Made by a program: the position numbers and the translations under genes
The notes under the pieces: model-generated
The model's input: the letters and a program-made list of their open reading frames with translations, nothing else
Databases searched by the model: none
Told to the model about the DNA's origin: nothing
Source of the DNA: Leucobacter tenebrionis
GTDB taxonomy: Bacteria; Actinomycetota; Actinomycetes; Actinomycetales; Microbacteriaceae
DNA length: 64,000 bases
Direction: 5' to 3'
NCBI RefSeq assembly: GCF_019884725.1
Contig: NZ_CP082322.1
Span: forward strand, 1-64,000
Shown: one piece after another, positions 25,748 through 50,191 of the stretch
Layout of the letters: the number at the start of each line of letters is the position of its first letter
Numbering within the stretch: the first letter of the stretch is position 1

Positions 25748-25761
25748 CCACCCGCGGGTGG
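25748..25761. promoter_or_regulatory. Second operator-like palindrome CCACCC-GC-GGGTGG
   Basis: Perfect 14-bp palindrome with the same half-site as 25703-25718. It ends 21 bp before GATACC (25783-25788), a possible -10 of the kinase-regulator operon, so it covers the -35 region. Binding by the NarL-type regulator encoded downstream would be consistent. Confidence 0.65.
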
Positions 25762-25880
25762 TGGTCGCCTCGGCCTCGCCCCGATACCGTGAAGGCGCGG
25801 GATCCAGCGGCGGCCGGGCTTGGCAGTCGTTCGGCGACCGAGGAGCGGCCTACGGGACGACGGAGACACGAGGAGGGACC

Positions 25881-27143
25881 ATGAGAGGCGACGCCACTTT
25901 GTTCGATCCCGGTGCGCTCGATGCCGTCGCGCTCGACGAGCCGGTGCTCCGGCGCCCCCGCGTCGTGCGCTGGTTCGCGGCGCGCCCGCGAATCGCCGAC
26001 GTGCTCGTGATCCTCGCGTGCACCGTCCCCACCCTGGCGGCGCTGATCCTCGTCCCGCCCCCGCACGCCTGGCTCGGCTACCTGTGCGCCGCGGGGGTCG
26101 CGGTCGCCTTCTGGTGGCGACGCAGCCATCCCCTCATCGTGCTGCTCGCCGTCGTCGCGCTCGCGACGCTGAACCCGCTCTCGGAAAGGGGTGTGACGAC
26201 GGCGTTCTTCGAGAGTGCCTTCGCCCTCTACGCGCTCGCGAGCTACTCGCGGCTGCGGACGGCGATCATCGGGTACCTGCTCAGTGAAGGCGTGATCCTC
26301 GCCACGGCCGGGCTCGCGATCGTGCTGGGGATCCGCGACGGCTGGCCCGCCGTGGGGCTCCAGCTGGGCTCCCTCGTCGCGCTCGCCCTCGGCATCGCGG
26401 TGCGGGCGAGCCGATCGCGCCGCGAGGCGATCGAGGAGCTCGTGACGCTCCGCGAGGACCGCGCCGCGGCCGCCGAGCGGGCGCGCATCACCGCCGAGAT
26501 GCACGATGTGGTCGCGCACTCGGTGACCGTCATGATCGCCCTCGCCGGGGGAGCCGCGGCGGGCTGGGAGAAGCACCCCGAGCGGGCGCGCACCGCCCTC
26601 GACCAGCTCGGCAGCGTCGGAGCGCGCACCCTCGAAGAGATGCAGCGGATCCTCCGGGTGCTCCGCGAGAACGACGCGGAGCTGGACCGGAACCTCGAGA
26701 CATCCGGCCACAACGTTCCGTCCATCGAAGAACTCGTCGAGGTGTTCAGAGCAGCGGGGCTTCCCGTCACCCTGACCGCCGAGGGCGCGGAGCTCGCGGA
26801 CGCGAGTGCCGACCCGGTGCTGCAGACCACGGTGCACCGGATCGTTCAGGAGGCCCTCACCAATGCGCTCCGCCACGCCGGCGACGCCACCTTCGTCGCC
26901 GTCGAGGTCGCGCACGCCGACGGGCGGATCATCGTGTCGGTGACGGACAACGGATCCGGGACGAAACCGGGGTCGAGCGTCGGCGCCGGGGTCGGGCTGC
27001 GAGCGATGCGCGAGCGGGCGGCGGCGTTCGGCGGCGAGTTCTCGGCCGGGCCCATCCCGAGTCGCGACGACGCTCCGGGCCGCGGATGGCGTACGCGCGT
27101 CTCCCTACCCGTGTCCCTCTCCCGTGAGGAGGGAGCAGCATGA
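25881..27143 (+). CDS. Histidine kinase of the NarL/DesK type
   Basis: 420-aa membrane sensor. About five N-terminal helices span residues 38-175 with little extracellular loop, so it likely senses the membrane or a transporter. The dimerisation domain HisKA_3 has H208 in ITAEMHDVVAHSVTVMI. The HATPase_c domain (about 310-412) has VQEALTNALRHAG and VTDNGSGTKPGSS...GVGLRAMRERAAAFGG. The start is the ATG at 25881 after GAGGAGGG; an earlier in-frame start at 25758 lacks an RBS. Its stop overlaps the regulator's ATG, giving a two-gene operon. Confidence 0.93.
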   Translation: MRGDATLFDPGALDAVALDEPVLRRPRVVRWFAARPRIADVLVILACTVPTLAALILVPPPHAWLGYLCAAGVAVAFWWRRSHPLIVLLAVVALATLNPLSERGVTTAFFESAFALYALASYSRLRTAIIGYLLSEGVILATAGLAIVLGIRDGWPAVGLQLGSLVALALGIAVRASRSRREAIEELVTLREDRAAAAERARITAEMHDVVAHSVTVMIALAGGAAAGWEKHPERARTALDQLGSVGARTLEEMQRILRVLRENDAELDRNLETSGHNVPSIEELVEVFRAAGLPVTLTAEGAELADASADPVLQTTVHRIVQEALTNALRHAGDATFVAVEVAHADGRIIVSVTDNGSGTKPGSSVGAGVGLRAMRERAAAFGGEFSAGPIPSRDDAPGRGWRTRVSLPVSLSREEGAA

Positions 27144-27835
27144 CGGACCGGACACCGCCGAGGATCAGCGTCGTCGTTGTCGACGACCAGCCGCTCGAGC
27201 GCGCCGGGAACGCCCTCATCCTCGACTCGGACGACGAGATCGAGGTCGTCGCAGAGGCGGGCGACGGCGTCGAGGCCCTCGGGGTGGTCGCGGAGGCACG
27301 ACCGGACATCGTGCTCATGGACGTGCGGATGCCGCTCATGAACGGCATCGAAGCCACCCGGATCATCTCCGAGCGCGAGCCGGGCACGCGGGTCATCGTG
27401 CTCACGACGTTCGACCTGGACGAGTACGCCTTCGGCAGCCTCAAGGCCGGGGCGAGCGCGTTCCTCCTGAAGAGCACGAAGCCCGCGGCGCTCATCGACG
27501 CGGTGAAGACCGTCGCATCAGGATCGGCCGTCGCCGCTCCGCGATTGACGGCGAAGCTCATCGAGCACTATCTCGGGCGGTCCGACCCGATGCGCGCGGA
27601 CGAGCCCGTCGATGAGAGCGGCACCCTCGAGGTGCTCAGCCCGAGAGAACGGGAGATCTTCATCGCGATCGTGCGGGGCCTGAGCAACACCGAGATCGGG
27701 GAGGAGCTCTTCCTCGCTCCGTCGACGATCAAATCCCACGTCAACTCGATCTTCGCCAAACTGAGGCTGCGTGATCGGGTTCACGCGGTGATCCTCGGGT
27801 ACGAACTCGGGTTGGCGCCGCGGGGCGCAGGATGA
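27140..27835 (+). CDS. LuxR/NarL-family response regulator
   Basis: 231-aa partner of the kinase. The receiver (about 8-130) has VVVDDQPLERAG, phospho-acceptor D61 in LMDVRMPLMNG and the conserved lysine in SAFLLKSTKP. The C-terminal HTH (about 165-228) has LSPREREIFIAIVRGLSNTEIGEELFLAPSTIKSHVNSIFAKL. It overlaps the kinase gene by 4 bp. It probably binds the two ACCACCC palindromes upstream of the operon and so also controls the divergent ABC exporter. Confidence 0.93.
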   Translation: MTDRTPPRISVVVVDDQPLERAGNALILDSDDEIEVVAEAGDGVEALGVVAEARPDIVLMDVRMPLMNGIEATRIISEREPGTRVIVLTTFDLDEYAFGSLKAGASAFLLKSTKPAALIDAVKTVASGSAVAAPRLTAKLIEHYLGRSDPMRADEPVDESGTLEVLSPREREIFIAIVRGLSNTEIGEELFLAPSTIKSHVNSIFAKLRLRDRVHAVILGYELGLAPRGAG

Positions 27836-27902: not shown

Positions 27903-30900
27903 TCATTCCACCGTGCCGAGCGGCTGGCGCGCGGTCGTGGGGGAGCCGGCCTCGAGGCCGTGCCGCAGGCGTCCCGCGCGCGGCGCCTTGATCGGCACTT
28001 CCATCTTCATGGCCTCGACGATAGCCACGGTGTCGCCCTCTGCGACGGTCGAGCCGTCAGCGGCCCTCCACGAGCTGAGCGTGCCCGCGAAGGGTGCCAG
28101 CACCTCGCCGGGGTCGGGAGTGCGGTCCTCCCCGGGAGCCGTGGCTGCGGCCGCCGGCGAGAACTCGGCGCTGCACTCCTCCTCGATCCAGCGCGTGTGC
28201 ACGGCGAAGCCGGCCTCCCCGGTCGCTGTGAACGCGGGATCCTCCACCACGAACCGGTCGAAGGGCAGCACCGAGGCGACACCCTCGATCTCGAACTCGG
28301 CGAGCGCACGTCGGGCGCGGGCCAGCGCCTCTTCGCGATCCCGCCCCCAGATGATCAGCTTGGCGAGGAGCGAATCGAAGGAACCGGGGATCGCCTGCCC
28401 GGCCTCGAACCCCGAGTCGAGGCGCACGCCCTGGCCGCCCGGCGGATCGAAGCGGGTGAGCGTGCCCGGCGTCGGCAGGTAGTCGAGTCCCGGATCCTCG
28501 GCGTTGATGCGGAACTCGATCGCGTGGCCGAAGACCGGTATCTCATCGGGCACCCGCATGGGGTCGCCTGCTGCGATCCTGAACTGCTCCTGCACGAGGT
28601 CGATCCCGGTCACCTGCTCCGTGACGGGATGCTCCACCTGCAGGCGCGTGTTCACCTCGAGAAACGAGAGAGTGCCGTCTGAGCCGAGCAGGAACTCGAC
28701 GGTGCCGACGCCCACGTACCCCGCAGCACCGCAGATGTCGGCTGCGGCGCGGTGGATCCTCTCCCGCAGCCCGTCGCTCAGGAACGGTGCGGGCGCCTCC
28801 TCGACCAGTTTCTGGTTGCGGCGCTGCAGCGAGCAGTCGCGGGTTCCGAGCACCGCGATGCGGCCGGTCCGATCACCCAGCACCTGGGCCTCGATGTGGC
28901 GGGGACGCTCGAGGAAGCGCTCGACGAGGCACTCGCCCTGCCCGAAGGCCCCCACGGCCTCGCGCACCGCCGACTCGTACGCCTCGGCGATCGACTCGCG
29001 CTCGTGCACCACCCGCATGCCGCGACCGCCGCCGCCGTGCACCGCCTTGATCGCGATGGGAAGACCGTGCGCGTCGGCGAACGCCTCGACGTCGGCTGCG
29101 GTGCGCACCGGAGCGTTGGTCCCCGGCACGAGCGGCGCACCGACCTCCGCCGCCAGCGTGCGGGCCCGCGCCTTATCTCCCAGCAGCTCGATGGTCTCGG
29201 GATCCGGGCCGATCCACACGAGACCCGCCTCGGTCACGGCGCGCGCGAAGGCCGCGCTCTCGGAAAGGAAGCCGTACCCGGGATGCACCGCGTCGGCGCC
29301 CGAGAGCCGGGCAGCCTCGAGCAGCTTCCCGGTATCGAGGTACGTCTCGTCGGGCGTCTCGCCGTGGAGCGCGTAGGCGTCGTCCGCCGCCCGCACGTGG
29401 AGCGCGTCGGCCTCCCCATCGGCGTACACCGCGACCGAGCGCAGCCCGGCCTCTCGGGCGGCCCGGATCACGCGCACGGCGATCTCGCCTCGGTTCGCGA
29501 CGAGCACGGTGGAGACGGGGCGGGCGGGCGCGTCCGAGGGCGAGCTCATCGCCCGCCCGCTCTCATGGGAGGAGCGGTTCGGGGGAGCGTGGGGGACGAA
29601 GCGCACTCTCGCGCCGGCGGGCAGCTGCGCGGCGAGATCGAGATCCTCCTCGCACACGACGCCGATCACGGGGTAGCCCCCCGTCAAGGGGTGATCGGCG
29701 AGGAACAGAACGGGCTGCCCGTCGGGCGGGACCTGCAGGGCCCCGGTGACGAGCCCCTCGCTGGGGAGTTCGAGCCCGATGCGATCGTCTGAGCGGATCA
29801 GCGGCGTGCCCGCCAACCGCACCCCCACCCGGTCGCTGCTCGGGGTGACGCTCCAGACCTGGTTCCAGAGCCGCGCGGCTCCCGTCGGGTCCTCGCGCGC
29901 GAACCAGTCGTCGCGCGGGCCGGGCACGACGCGCAGCACGGCGACCCGATCGGCGCGCGGCAGCCTGCCGCGAGTCGGGGCCGGATCGGCCGGATCGGTC
30001 ACTGCCAGCCGCCCGGCATGCACGGTAGCGCCCGCCTCGAGCGGCGCGGGTCCGAGCCCCGCGAGAGTGTCGCGCGCCGCGCTGCCGAGCACGATCGGAG
30101 CGTCGACGCCGCCGCGGAGCGCCAGCACGGTGCGGAGGCCGCTGCCGGGCTCGGCGAGCGCGAGCGTCTCGCCCGCCGATAGCTCGAATGCCTGCCCGTG
30201 CGGCACGGACCGCTCGCCCAGCGCGCCGGCGATCCGCCCCGGCCGCGGAGCGCCGGTCATCGCCAGCACGGTATCGGCACGAGCCCGAACCGCGAACTCG
30301 CCGAGACCGAGCTCGAGCACCGCCGCGCTCGGGTCGTTACCGACCAGGCTGTTGGCACTGTCGAGCGCGCCGCGATCCGCGGCTCCCGAAGCGCCCACTC
30401 CCATTGCAGCGAGGCCGGCGCGACCGCGATCCTGGATCGTCGTGTTGAGGCCCGGGCTCACGACCGTCAGGGAGGGCCCTGCGGAGGGGCCGGGTTCACG
30501 AGGCTCGCCCGTTTCGCCCGTCCTCCCGGGCTGACCAGCGCGCTCGGTGCCGATCCCGGCAGCGGTCCCAGCTACCCCGGCGGCTTCGGCGGTCTCGGCG
30601 GTCTCAGCGGTCTCGGCGGCCGCGGTGACGCGCAGCGGTGCTCGCACGGGGGCGAACCGCACCCGGTCGCCGGGAGTCAGCAGCGCCGGCCGCTCGCGAT
30701 CCAGATCCCACATCACGGCATCGGTGCGCCCGATCAGCTGCCACCCGCCGGGGCTCCGCCTGGGATACACCCCCGAGAAGGGGCCCGCGAGGCCCACCGA
30801 ACCGGCGTCGACGCGCGGTCTCGGGCTCGAACGGCGCGGCACGTCGAGGGCGGGGTCGCCGCCGGAGAGATAGGCGAAGCCCGGGGCGAATCCGGTGAAG

Positions 30901-31286
30901 GCGACCGTGTACTGCGGGGCGCTGTGCCGGGCGATGACCTGATCGACGCTCATGCCGGTGAGCTCGGCCACCTCGGCGAGGTCGACGCCGTCGTAGCTCA
31001 CCGGGATCAGCGTCTCGGATCCGCCGTCGGCGCGTGCGCTCGCCGCCGGGTCGCCCTCGAGCAGAGCTCCGAGGCGGGTCTCGAAAGCGCGCGCGTCGCG
31101 GGCCTCGCCGCCGCGCACCAGCACGGTCTCGGCGGCCGGCACCAACTCGTCGAAGCGCAGCTCACCGCTCTCACCGGCGGCGGTCAGCGCGGCGAGCACC
31201 TCGAGGGCGCCCTCGAGGCTGCCGCAGTCGAGCAGCACGGCGTCGCTGCCCGCGGCGCGCAGGCGCACCCGCTCCACGGGGCTCAT
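27903..31286 (-). CDS. PxpB-PxpC-biotin carboxylase-BCCP fusion protein
   Basis: A single 1127-aa frame with four modules. Residues about 1-220 are PxpB/KipI-like (carboxyltransferase C/D half): [32 protein letters not shown]. An Ala/Thr/Glu-rich linker (about 221-263) follows. Residues about 264-575 are PxpC/KipA-like ([38 protein letters not shown]). Residues about 595-1040 are biotin carboxylase ([44 protein letters not shown]). The end is a biotin carrier domain with EAMKM and K1094 as the biotinylation site. No stop separates the parts. Its ATG overlaps the pxpA stop. Urea carboxylase uses the same modules as BC-AHS-BCCP, so this is a permutation. 5-Oxoproline cleavage or an amide carboxylation are the likely reactions; which one is not decided. 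Confidence 0.9.
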
Positions 31287-32047
31287 CGCCGCCCCGCGAA
31301 GGACTCCAGCGTCGCGCCTGCGTCGATCAGCCGATCCCGCACCGCCACCGCCATCCGCACCGCGCCGTCGCTGTCGCCGTGCACGCAGATGGACTCGGCC
31401 CGAAGCCGCACCTCGCTGCCGTCGCGCGCGGTGACCACGCCCTCCCGCACGAGGCGCACCATGCGATCGGCGACCTCGACCGGGTCGTGCAGCACCGCTC
31501 CCGGGTCGCGCCGCGATACGAGCGCTCCGCTCGGCTCATAGGCGCGGTCGGCGAAGGCCTCGGGCACGGCGCGCATGCCCGCAGCCTCTGCCTGATCCAC
31601 CAGCTGCGAGGCAGCGAGGCACACGAGCGGCAGTTCGGGATCGACCGCGCGTATCGCGCGGATCACCGCCGCGGCCTGCCGCTCGTCCCGCGCGATCGTG
31701 TTGTAGAGCGCACCGTGCGGCTTCACGTAGCGCACCTCGGTTCCGGCGACGCGCGCGAGTGCCTGCAGCGCGCCGATCTGGTAGATCACGTCGGCCTCGA
31801 GCTCGGCGTCCGACAGATTCATCTCGCGCCGCCCGAATCCGACGAGGTCGGGGTAGGCGACGTGCGCCCCCACCGTGACCCCGTGCGCGGTCGCGGCACG
31901 CAGAGTCTCGAGTACCGAGCGCGGGTCTCCCGCGTGGAACCCGCAGGCGACGTTCGCGCTCGTCACCACGTCGAGCATCGCCTCGTCGTCTCCCATGCGC
32001 CAGGCGCCGTAGTGCTCGCCCAGGTCGCTGTTCACATCGATCCGCAT
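31283..32047 (-). CDS. pxpA: 5-oxoprolinase subunit A (LamB/YcsF family)
   Basis: Cytosolic hydrolase-like subunit that opens 5-oxoproline to glutamate together with PxpB and PxpC. The 254-aa protein has the family signature [15 protein letters not shown] and [12 protein letters not shown]. It also has [30 protein letters not shown] and the C-terminal [14 protein letters not shown]. Length is normal. It is the first gene of a two-gene operon, and its TGA overlaps the ATG of the fusion protein, so the two polypeptides are made in a coupled fashion. Presence of PxpA favours 5-oxoproline as substrate of the complex. Confidence 0.93.
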
Positions 32048-32280: not shown

Positions 32281-33048
32281 ATGCGCATGATCGACCTCAG
32301 CCACCCGGTGACGGCCGGCATGATGGTCTACCCGGGCGACCCGGAGGTGCGTTCGCACGAGGCCCTCCACGTCGGCTCGGACGGCGTCGCGGTCACGGAG
32401 CTCACCCTCGGCTCGCACACCGGCACCCACATCGACGCGCCCTCGCACACGGTCGAGGGTGGCCGCACGATCGACCGGATCCCGCTCGACGCACTGACGG
32501 GAGAGGCGCTGGTCCTGCACGTCGCCGACCGGGCGGGGGAGTCGCAGCGCATCGACGCCGCGATGCTCGGGCTCGAGCGGTTCGCATCGGTGCCCCCGCT
32601 CGTGGCGATCCGCACGGGCTGGGATCGCCGCTTCGGCGAGGAGCGCGCGCTGCGCCACCCCTTCCTCTGCCCGGAGGCCGCGCGGGAACTGCGGGATCGC
32701 GGCATGCGCGTGCTCATCGTCGACACGCTCAGCCCGGATCCCTCTGCGCCCGTTTCCTCCGAGACCGACCCCTCCGCGCCGGTGCCGGCCGGCGCCTCCG
32801 GGAGCCTGCCGGGAGACGTCGATCCCGAGCAGGCGCTGCCGGTGCACGCCGTGGTGCTCGGGGGCGACGGCGCCATCGTCGAGAACGCCCGCGGCCTCGA
32901 AGCGCTCGGGGAGCGGGCCGAGATCGGGATCTTCCCGCTGCCGCTCGCGGGAGCCGACGGGGCACCGGCCCGGCTCGTCGCCTGGGTGGACGAGGATCGG
33001 GACCCCGCGGCCCTTGCGGAAGGGGGAGGGCATCGCCCAGGCTGGTAG
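32281..33048 (+). CDS. Cyclase-family amidohydrolase (kynurenine formamidase-like)
   Basis: 255-aa metal-dependent hydrolase of the cyclase family. Substrates in the family are N-formylkynurenine, isatin or cyclic amides. The metal-binding motif [14 protein letters not shown] is intact, with MVYPGDPEV near the N-terminus and [20 protein letters not shown] near the C-terminus. Residues about 152-180 ([23 protein letters not shown]) are an unusual low-complexity insertion. It is divergent from pxpA, so a shared role in cyclic amide breakdown is plausible but not shown. An alternative start lies 6 bp downstream. Confidence 0.8.
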
Positions 33049-43755: not shown

Positions 43756-43840
43756 GCGCGGGTGGCGGAATGGCAGACGCGCTAGCTTGAGGTGCTAGTG
43801 CCCGTATTAGGGCGTGGGGGTTCAAGTCCCCCTCCGCGCA
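43756..43840 (+). tRNA. tRNA-Leu (anticodon GAG)
   Basis: Class II tRNA with acceptor GCGCGGG (43756-43762) pairing with TCCGCGC (43833-43839) and discriminator A. The anticodon stem CTAGC/GCTAG encloses TTGAGGT, giving GAG (codon CUC). It has a long variable arm and T-loop TTCAAGT. CCA is not encoded. Confidence 0.95.
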
Positions 43841-43848
43841 CGTGAATG

Positions 43849-43895
43849 AAATGGCCCCTGGCTTCGGAAAGAGACTTCCGAGCCGGGGGCCATTT
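43849..43895 (+). terminator. Terminator after tRNA-Leu(GAG)
   Basis: AAATGGCCCCTGGCTTCGGAA pairs with TTCCGAGCCGGGGGCCATTT in a 20-bp stem with one bulge around a 6-nt loop. It ends in CATTTGCG. Confidence 0.85.
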
Positions 43896-44587
43896 GCGTT
43901 GTGCGGAGAAGACCGGGTTGTCGGGGGTTGTCGGCCCGACGAGGTTATCCGTAACCGTTGAAGCGCTGCGACGCCTGCGGATTCCGCTGCTGCCCCGCCC
44001 TCCGCTGTAGTGGCCGGCCTTCGCACTGTGAAACCGTCTGTGTCCGCCGAGACGTCCTTTGGCCGTCAGCGGCGGGGGCGGTCTCGACGGCCGGAGGCAG
44101 AGTCGACGGAGCGCGGTCTGCCGCGCCGGCCCGTGCCGCTGCCCTGGGCTACCGCTGCACCGACTCCGTGAGGATGCGCCGCTCCTCGTGCGGCAGCTGG
44201 GGTTCGATGATTCCCGCGTGAGTGAAGCAGGTTGGTGGATCCTGCGATTCCTTCGCCGTGCAGCTTGACGAGAATGCGGGGTGCCGCTTCCGTCGGTGAG
44301 TGATTGGAGTTCCGGGCGTCTCGGGGTCGCGCCGCGACGGAGGAGTGGCGCGCGACGGGGCCCGGTCTCGGCGCAGAATGCTGCTCCCGTGCCGCGACAC
44401 GCCCGGGATGCGTGGCCGTGTTGCGGTGGAGGTGGGCTGAGCGTAATGTATTCCCTTGTCAGCGCGACGGAGCCGGGCCGCTAGGGTGGTCCGGTTTATT
44501 ATGTTGCGCGGCGGATGCCGATCATGGTGTCTGCGTGGACAGGTTGCTGTTCGGAAGGCCGTTGGGTTGGTACGGGTGGTGTCTGGT

Positions 44588-44610
44588 CTTTGAGAACTCA
44601 ATAGTGTGCA
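44588..44610 (+). promoter_or_regulatory. rrn leader antitermination element (boxA-like)
   Basis: The sequence TTTGAGAACTCAATAGTGTG (44590-44609) is the conserved actinobacterial rrn leader element associated with antitermination and processing. A diverged copy occurs in the 16S-23S spacer. Confidence 0.6.
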
Positions 44611-44615
44611 CTTGA

Positions 44616-44625
44616 TTGTTTTATG
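44616..44625 (+). promoter_or_regulatory. 5' half of the pre-16S processing stem
   Basis: TTGTTTTATG (44616-44625) is complementary to CATAAAACAA (46396-46405) in the spacer, so the two flank mature 16S in a stem for RNase III. Confidence 0.5.
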
Positions 44626-44783
44626 CCAATTATTTTGTTGCCGGCATTGATCACGGTTGTGGTTGGTGTTGGTGATGTTTTTTGGACAATGGATTGAATG
44701 TCAGTTGATGTTTGGTCTTTTTTGTCAGGTCAGACTCGTGAGCGCGGCGGCTTATTCCGTTGTCGTGTTCGCATTTGTTTTTT

Positions 44784-49945
<5,162 letters not shown>

Positions 49946-49991
49946 ACACCCCACCCCCCAGGGGGGTGAGCATGCAAATGTAACGATGATT

Positions 49992-50020
49992 CGCGTCCAC
50001 TTTGTGGTTCCCAACAGACG
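49992..50020 (+). promoter_or_regulatory. 3' half of pre-23S processing stem
   Basis: TCGCGTCCACTTTGTGGTTCCCAAC is complementary to the spacer element at 46628-46654 with a few mismatches, enclosing the 23S precursor. Confidence 0.6.
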
Positions 50021-50064
50021 GCCCACACCCCCACACACTCGGGGTGTGTCGACATGTTGACAGA

Positions 50065-50181
50065 GTTACGGCGGCCATAGCGTCAGGGAAACGCCCGGAC
50101 ACATTCCGAACCCGGAAGCTAAGACTGACAGCGCCAATGGTACTGCGAGGGGGACCTCGTGGGAGAGTAGGACACCGCCGG
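50065..50181 (+). rRNA. rrf: 5S ribosomal RNA
   Basis: 117 nt beginning GTTACGGCGGCCATAGCG and ending CACCGCCGGAC. It contains the conserved CGAACCCGGAAGCTAAG and the terminal helix. It lies about 120 bp after 23S and directly before the operon terminators. Confidence 0.96.
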
Positions 50182-50191
50182 ACACCCATTC

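Follow-up and report, generated by a model that had tools for sequence, protein, structure and literature searches.

A PxpB-PxpC-biotin carboxylase-biotin carrier fusion beside pxpA in Leucobacter tenebrionis, a candidate biotin-dependent 5-oxoprolinase

The first 64,000 nucleotides of contig NZ_CP082322.1 of Leucobacter tenebrionis (NCBI RefSeq assembly GCF_019884725.1; this whole stretch is called the window below) carry, next to pxpA, a gene that joins the 5-oxoprolinase subunits PxpB and PxpC to a biotin carboxylase (BC) and a biotin carrier in one polypeptide. We give a probability of about one half to the reading that PxpA and the fusion would together form a self-contained, biotin-dependent 5-oxoprolinase, a proposal made from sequence. 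The initial annotation had suggested a biotin-dependent 5-oxoproline or lactam carboxylase, and we retain this as the leading idea; the BC, carrier and carboxyltransferase (CT) modules are complete. The proposal draws on the domains, on most of the catalytic residues of the BC as seen by alignment, on the gene overlap, on the repeated fusion and on the cassette context of relatives. The window protein is real, and it is a covalent variant of a biotin-linked PxpABC cassette. Articles are cited by PMC identifier, for those parts of each that were available.

Gene and domain organization

The fusion gene (27903-31286, minus strand) is one uninterrupted open reading frame (ORF) with an ATG start, encoding 1127 amino acids (117 kDa), in a genome of 3.38 Mb on a single contig. 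Pfam orders the domains PxpB-PxpC-BC-carrier, with every match above its curated cut-off (Table 1). The ORF and domain search bear out the single 1127-codon frame described in the initial annotation, and the sequence equally confirms K1094 within EAMKM and the 4-bp overlap with pxpA. All modules of a biotin-dependent carboxylase are present in the fusion, namely a BC, a carrier with the biotinyl lysine motif and a CT, and the adjacent homologues of pxpA, pxpB and pxpC (PF03746, PF02682 and PF02626) make up the gene content of PxpABC. The G+C content of the fusion by codon position (0.78/0.56/0.89) has the pattern of a coding frame and that of pxpA likewise fits coding; AAGGAG precedes the pxpA start. 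PxpA scores 374.9 against NCBIfam NF003814 (cut-off 226). No RNA family was found at the operon, and a consensus scan gave no promoter or terminator signals.

Table 1. Features of the fusion gene and pxpA in the window
Feature	Coordinates	Strand	Remarks
CT_C_D (PxpB/KipI-like), PF02682	30678..31265	-	residues 8-203; Pfam E 7.3e-57
CT_A_B (PxpC/KipA-like), PF02626	29592..30404	-	residues 295-565; Pfam E 5.3e-76
Fusion junction	29514..29591	-	residues 566-591; internal ATG at residue 580, first base 29549
Biotin carboxylase	28179..29513	-	residues 592-1036; Biotin_carb_N 592-699, CPSase_L_D2 704-910, Biotin_carb_C 924-1036
Biotin carrier (BCCP), Biotin_lipoyl PF00364	27963..28118	-	residues 1057-1108
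K1094 codon, predicted biotinyl lysine	28005..28007	-	EAMKM motif
pxpA (LamB/YcsF, LamB_YcsF)	31283..32047	-	254 amino acids, upstream, same direction; PF03746, Pfam E 6.5e-102
pxpA stop / fusion start overlap, ATGA	31283..31286	-	4 bp; sequence

Biotin carboxylase lineage and carboxyltransferase residues

The BC of the fusion agrees with E. coli AccC at 14 of 16 checked positions in an alignment. Its BC half (query residues 587-1053) is 59% identical to the genome's separate AccA3-type copy, and a third BC of the genome reaches 48%. A tree of 76 BC rows places 47 cassette BCs in one clade (starred branch, 100) with 16 BCs from short loci without PxpC; we read these 16 as housekeeping AccA3-type proteins. 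The window BC groups with AccA3-type subunits, its nearest named neighbours being those of Corynebacterium pacaense and Leucobacter coleopterorum. Six urea carboxylase BCs form a clade of their own (starred branch, 100), to which the window BC does not belong. Cassettes in which pxpB and pxpC are separate genes have BCs outside the large clade: L209; L197 with L202; L210 with L213; and L211, on a long, adjoining branch. Cassette BCs thus occupy several places on the tree, and BCs of more than one lineage have become partners of Pxp carboxyltransferases. Both L197 and L202 (same phylum, family f26) are Pxp loci with a BC and D-glutamate cyclase, PxpB and PxpC being separate.

The CT half was compared between Pxp-type loci with a linked BC (43 rows) and those without (34 rows for PxpC, 33 for PxpB). 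At the columns conserved to at least 90% in the linked rows, 53 in PxpC and 32 in PxpB, the consensus is unchanged in the unlinked rows. Some of these columns are looser in the unlinked set (the I541 column falls to 47%, and several others loosen), and the reverse, a tighter column, is seen four times in PxpC and eight times in PxpB. E. coli agrees at 48/53 conserved PxpC columns and 31/32 PxpB columns. We looked among these residues for marks of an altered CT site in the BC-linked proteins and rejected the idea, as no column at 90% or above has a different consensus in the unlinked set. The PxpB alignment held no urea carboxylase rows, and the comparison with urea carboxylase is one of PxpC only: nine urea carboxylase-type rows share R289, E325, S402, R486, R490, D531 and Q554, among others, and have a different consensus at S509, Q518, P520, Y538 and I541.

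Reality and origin of the fusion

A long fused frame could in principle be an artefact, two genes with a stop/start overlap being run together by a one-base error in sequencing or assembly, and the initial annotation had named a hidden stop between residues 575 and 600 as a possible refutation. The junctions of split relatives make this worth weighing: in the 11 that were checked the genes share 1 or 4 bp, and the BC lies in a different frame in 12 split loci, so that a single indel would suffice to fuse the genes. The same ease would allow fusion to recur. We consider a masked stop unlikely, and an actual pair of separate genes very improbable, because the Corynebacterium pacaense locus (L036; separate assembly, PxpC 65% identical) is fused at the same place as the window and a second sister pair, L154 and L156, is fused as well. 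The fusion is present in two genomes of each of two lineages. Furthermore, the nearest split relatives (L007-L009) have AGGAG or GGAG ahead of the BC start, and no comparable Shine-Dalgarno sequence was seen by eye before the internal ATG of the fusion, which lies close to the point where the BC genes of split relatives begin. Even if the error were true, the reading as a cassette would stand.

Absence of the fusion from close relatives was also named in advance as a refutation, and not all of them have it. The sister L036 is fused; in L007 (genome G014, same genus) pxpBC and BC-carrier are two genes with an ATGA overlap. In the PxpC tree, a quick tree without bootstrap, the window has C. pacaense as its sister (starred branch, 99), and three split loci from the same genus and family join them (starred branch, 99; 5 rows). 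L154 and L156 are also sisters (starred branch, 100), and the fused L152 is placed elsewhere. The fused state changes three times on the best PxpC tree; two of these changes are forced by starred branches, and fusion has arisen in at least two lineages. The cassette of Leucobacter coleopterorum (L035, 5887-7675) has GntR and NRAMP genes and a PxpC broken over three overlapping frames, through either decay or assembly error.

The biotin-linked cassette and its neighbours

The CT query (residues 1-575) found matches in 275 of 396 genomes of the order, a figure that counts partial matches and urea carboxylases together. Sixty regions were taken: 14 long-frame loci (stop-free, about 950 amino acids or more) among the order-survey matches listed, which exclude the window; 6 other long-frame rows, a part of such rows; and 40 picked by hand. 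Five loci, ten others (a set from which L035 had already been dropped because of its broken PxpC), ten plasmid regions and the window were added, giving 86 loci with CT_A_B. A script labelled 37 of these BC-near, 5 fused, 38 without BC and 6 urea carboxylase. L209, with its BC gene on the opposite strand at a distance of about 4.5 kb, was moved by hand to BC-near, and L158, L198 and L200 were set aside as they stand with or beside urea carboxylase in the PxpC tree, where urea carboxylases are not one clean group. This leaves 77 Pxp-type loci, 43 BC-linked and 34 unlinked; most were chosen by likeness to the query and the counts are not prevalences.

The initial annotation had called for a survey of this domain order. 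The single-ORF fusion recurs, in 5 of the 86 CT_A_B loci, including 3 of the 14 long-frame loci among the order-survey matches listed (L152, L154 and L156), but it is only one form of a wider arrangement: many sampled loci have the same parts as two or more genes, and nine further BC-linked loci (L010-L016, L023 and L024) are all split. If urea carboxylases are excluded, the PxpC tree calls for 12 changes in BC linkage. Taken by itself, the BC-near label requires 13, of which starred branches force 6. The fusion is a covalent form of a wider, under-recognised biotin-linked cassette of pxpA, pxpBC and BC-carrier.

The neighbours of this cassette in some relatives point to 5-oxoproline. In C. 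pacaense a divergent GntR gene is followed by NRAMP, pxpA, the fusion and D-glutamate cyclase, and plasmids of Klebsiella, Aureimonas and Paracoccus carry GntR, NRAMP, PxpA, D-glutamate cyclase, PxpBC and BC-carrier (the Paracoccus pxpA is absent from the record's table and was recovered by a search of the locus). Pfam confirms PF07286 (D-glutamate cyclase), PF01566 and GntR/FCD in C. pacaense and Klebsiella. A GntR regulator and an NRAMP-type transporter are likewise found in the pxpR-pxpTABC locus of C. glutamicum, which is required for growth on 5-oxo-L-proline (PMC13274462). The mammalian D-glutamate cyclase, a protein of two domains, yields 5-oxo-D-proline (PMC5339696). The Pfam name of PF07286 is a lead tying the cassette to 5-oxo-D-proline formation; the available part of PMC5339696 does not show which of the two is the cyclase domain. 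Counting anything of at least 40% identity in the fetched stretch, some of it several kb off and some loci being short, D-glutamate cyclase accompanies 22/43 BC-linked and 1/34 unlinked loci, and NRAMP 12/43 and 1/34. On the Klebsiella plasmid (L204, 1938-3380) a second, shorter BC-carrier gene lies on the opposite strand, beside a DUF1989 gene.

Relation to known systems

The window proteins resemble PxpABC 5-oxoprolinase of E. coli and C. glutamicum in their PxpA, PxpB and PxpC homologues and in the consensus of the CT columns, and differ in that a BC and carrier are joined to PxpB-PxpC. The literature searched yielded no account of a biotin-dependent 5-oxoprolinase, or of a biotin role for PxpABC. 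PMC3199775 had pointed out that bacteria and archaea carry the halves of this CT as paired genes, for which functional data were then lacking. Like urea carboxylase/urea amidolyase (K. lactis, PDB 3va7 and 5i8i), the fusion with its BC, two CT domains and carrier is a single chain. It differs in having the CT first (the BC precedes the PxpC-like domain in urea carboxylase loci L159-L163 and L212), an AccA3-type BC, Pxp-type PxpC residues, and PxpA in place of allophanate hydrolase; the module order, with the KipI/KipA part leading, had been recognized in the initial annotation and is upheld by the Pfam order. The AccA3-type alpha subunit of actinobacterial acyl-CoA carboxylases belongs to the same BC clade, whereas the window BC is joined to a Pxp carboxyltransferase and has no hairpin-like segment before its carrier.

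The closest structural parallel comes from the Protein Data Bank (PDB). The CT half finds matches in chains 9yx5_V (E 1.8e-56) and 9yx5_W (E 7.6e-51), which are named allophanate hydrolase subunits 2 and 1; 3mml_A and 3mml_B are very similar to them and bear the same chain names. Entry 9yx5, which is presumably from Mycobacterium smegmatis, also holds a sequence named acyl-CoA carboxylase alpha3 subunit (AccA3) and two AccD-type sequences, example chains of which are labelled D5a and D4a in 9t97. Judged from the chain sequences of the entry alone, its PxpB and PxpC homologues probably form a complex with AccA3, there as separate chains, unlike the window protein. No PxpA match came from this entry, and no paper on it was found in the literature searched.

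Separate BC and carrier genes beside pxp genes have been reported elsewhere. A six-gene operon of S. aureus includes pxpB, pxpC, pxpA, accB and accC, with the acc genes read as belonging to fatty acid synthesis (PMC11315280); it resembles the window in having BC and carrier genes with pxpABC and differs in keeping them separate. Extra BC and carrier genes, and also pxpB and pxpC, are listed for Lp. pentosus, with no link drawn in the available part of PMC12427679. The 5-oxoprolinase of P. putida consists of component A, with polypeptides of 64 and 51 kDa, and component B of 82 kDa (PMC8453981). Calculated masses are 60.7-62.2 kDa for BC-carrier of L204, L205 and L206, 56.0-56.5 kDa for PxpBC of L204 and L205, and 26.6-27.8 kDa for PxpA; a PxpBC of 89.3 kDa in L206 reflects a start called too early, and a 52.5-kDa product in L204 is the shorter BC copy. 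The likeness of the P. putida component sizes to these is suggestive only.

Proposed reaction and alternatives

In the scheme that we propose, the BC domain would carboxylate the biotin of K1094 at the expense of ATP and bicarbonate, and the carrier arm would deliver CO2 to the PxpB-PxpC CT. The CT would place it on the lactam of 5-oxoproline, yielding an activated lactam whose ring PxpA would hydrolyse, and the carbamate left on glutamate would then shed CO2. Biotinylation, carboxyl transfer, the substrate and the order of the steps are what we infer from the layout, and the scheme mirrors urea carboxylase followed by allophanate hydrolase.

Several observations weigh against this biotin-dependent scheme. 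The fusion scores below the NCBIfam cut-offs for PxpB (TIGR00370, 129.2 against 145.55) and PxpC (NF045499, 190 against 500), and below that of TIGR00724 (221.6 against 230.2); the split PxpBC of Klebsiella also falls short of the PxpB and PxpC cut-offs, but passes TIGR00724. Two BC positions differ from E. coli AccC, H236 being N824 and I287 being L876. In the genome's separate AccA3-type copy the second position is likewise L but the first is H; N at the first also occurs in L036, L035 and L103 by alignment. The end of the BC match is 52 residues from the biotin motif, compared with 86-118 (median about 97) in 34 other BC-carrier proteins; the stretch at 27963-28179 is thus 34 residues short of the shortest and about 45 short of the median comparator. 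What is missing is a hairpin-like segment of DGK/DGR/NGW type between BC and carrier. It may be a docking element dispensable in a covalent fusion, which is only a guess because the other four fusions retain it. Identification of the substrate rests on relatives, since D-glutamate cyclase had no match in the window genome and NRAMP only a 32% fragment (E 1e-4); across seven genomes these searches found both genes in four (G014, G051, G121 and G078) and neither in G158 and G096 of the genus. When relatedness is allowed for, the link between cyclase and BC is not significant (5 independent pairs, median p 0.5). All five pairs show the same direction or no difference, in a test that is under-powered for both cyclase and NRAMP and cannot reach significance. 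Finally, C. glutamicum grows on 5-oxoproline with pxpABC in an operon without a BC gene (PMC13274462), and 34/77 sampled Pxp-type loci have no BC in the locus; a dedicated BC is therefore not needed.

In a reading that the growth of C. glutamicum also supports, the protein is bifunctional, PxpB-PxpC phosphorylating 5-oxoproline with ATP and the BC-carrier half serving another reaction. Phosphorylation by PxpB and PxpC is an assumption in PMC13274462 and co-purified PxpB and PxpC are said, citing other work, to hydrolyse ATP (PMC8453981), both of which favour direct use of ATP; an 18O study on a phosphorylated intermediate also appears, by title, among the references of PMC8453981. This reading would leave unexplained the repeated fusion of BC with PxpBC, the presence of more than one BC lineage beside Pxp genes and the occurrence of PxpB/PxpC homologues and AccA3 in one PDB entry. 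Moreover, the genome has its separate AccA3-type subunit, which lies far from the window at a distance of some 20-30 kb from the genome's two PF01039 carboxyltransferases, so that the BC of the fusion is not needed for these. We regard a bifunctional protein as rather unlikely. We put at a similarly low level the possibility that the biotin chemistry is as proposed and the substrate another small lactam, a hydantoin or a urea-like compound, then hydrolysed by PxpA. The same CT modules act on urea in urea carboxylase, where a hydrolase does the second step (PMC5770610); some relatives have a 5-oxoproline transporter and a D-glutamate cyclase that are missing from the window genome, and a divergent PF04199 gene adjoins pxpA. 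That gene gave no match at E 1e-6 in the other sampled loci, though, the close relatives G014, G051 and G121 carry 5-oxoproline genes, and E. coli PxpC agrees at most of the conserved PxpC columns, several of which differ in urea carboxylase. A rearranged urea carboxylase making allophanate from urea was considered as well, since the modules are the same and TIGR02712 (urea_carbox) is the top NCBIfam match by E-value. We rejected it as exceedingly improbable: the score is 633.8 bits against an equivalog cut-off of 1303.85, S509, Q518, P520 and Y538 follow the Pxp consensus, the BC belongs to another lineage, and the partner is PxpA, with no allophanate hydrolase among the neighbours scanned.

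The initial annotation held classical PxpABC to be independent of biotin, in keeping with the published accounts (PMC13274462, PMC8453981). The consensus shared by BC-linked and unlinked PxpBC, together with entry 9yx5, puts this in doubt. A bolder possibility, which we hold tentatively and think doubtful, is that PxpABC in general is a biotin-dependent carboxylating lactamase with PxpB-PxpC as its CT, in which case the phosphorylation assumption would be wrong. Where the operon has no BC, PxpABC would recruit both a BC and a carrier in trans from the housekeeping set (AccA3, or AccB/AccC); the window protein would be such a borrowed complex in covalent form.

Other features of the window

A histidine kinase and LuxR-type response regulator pair (25758-27835, plus strand) is convergent with the 3' end of the fusion. 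The PF04199 cyclase gene (32281-33048, plus strand) is divergent from pxpA, 233 bp apart, and its arylformamidase match is far below the cut-off; a conserved role for it was rejected, as no match at E 1e-6 was found in the other 86 loci. A complete rRNA operon with a tRNA occupies 43756-50183 on the plus strand (16S 44782-46311, 23S 46843-49947, 5S 50067-50183).

Significance

PxpABC is the type of 5-oxoprolinase found in the majority of genomes analysed in PMC13274462, and activation of the lactam by PxpB/PxpC is, in the available part of that article, only assumed. The covalent joint between PxpBC and BC-carrier offers a direct test of biotin and bicarbonate dependence. If the biotin-dependent reading is true, a lactam would join the substrates of biotin-dependent carboxylases and 5-oxoproline clearance would be tied to the acyl-CoA carboxylase pool. 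The accB and accC genes found beside pxp genes, and taken for fatty acid genes, would then need a new reading.

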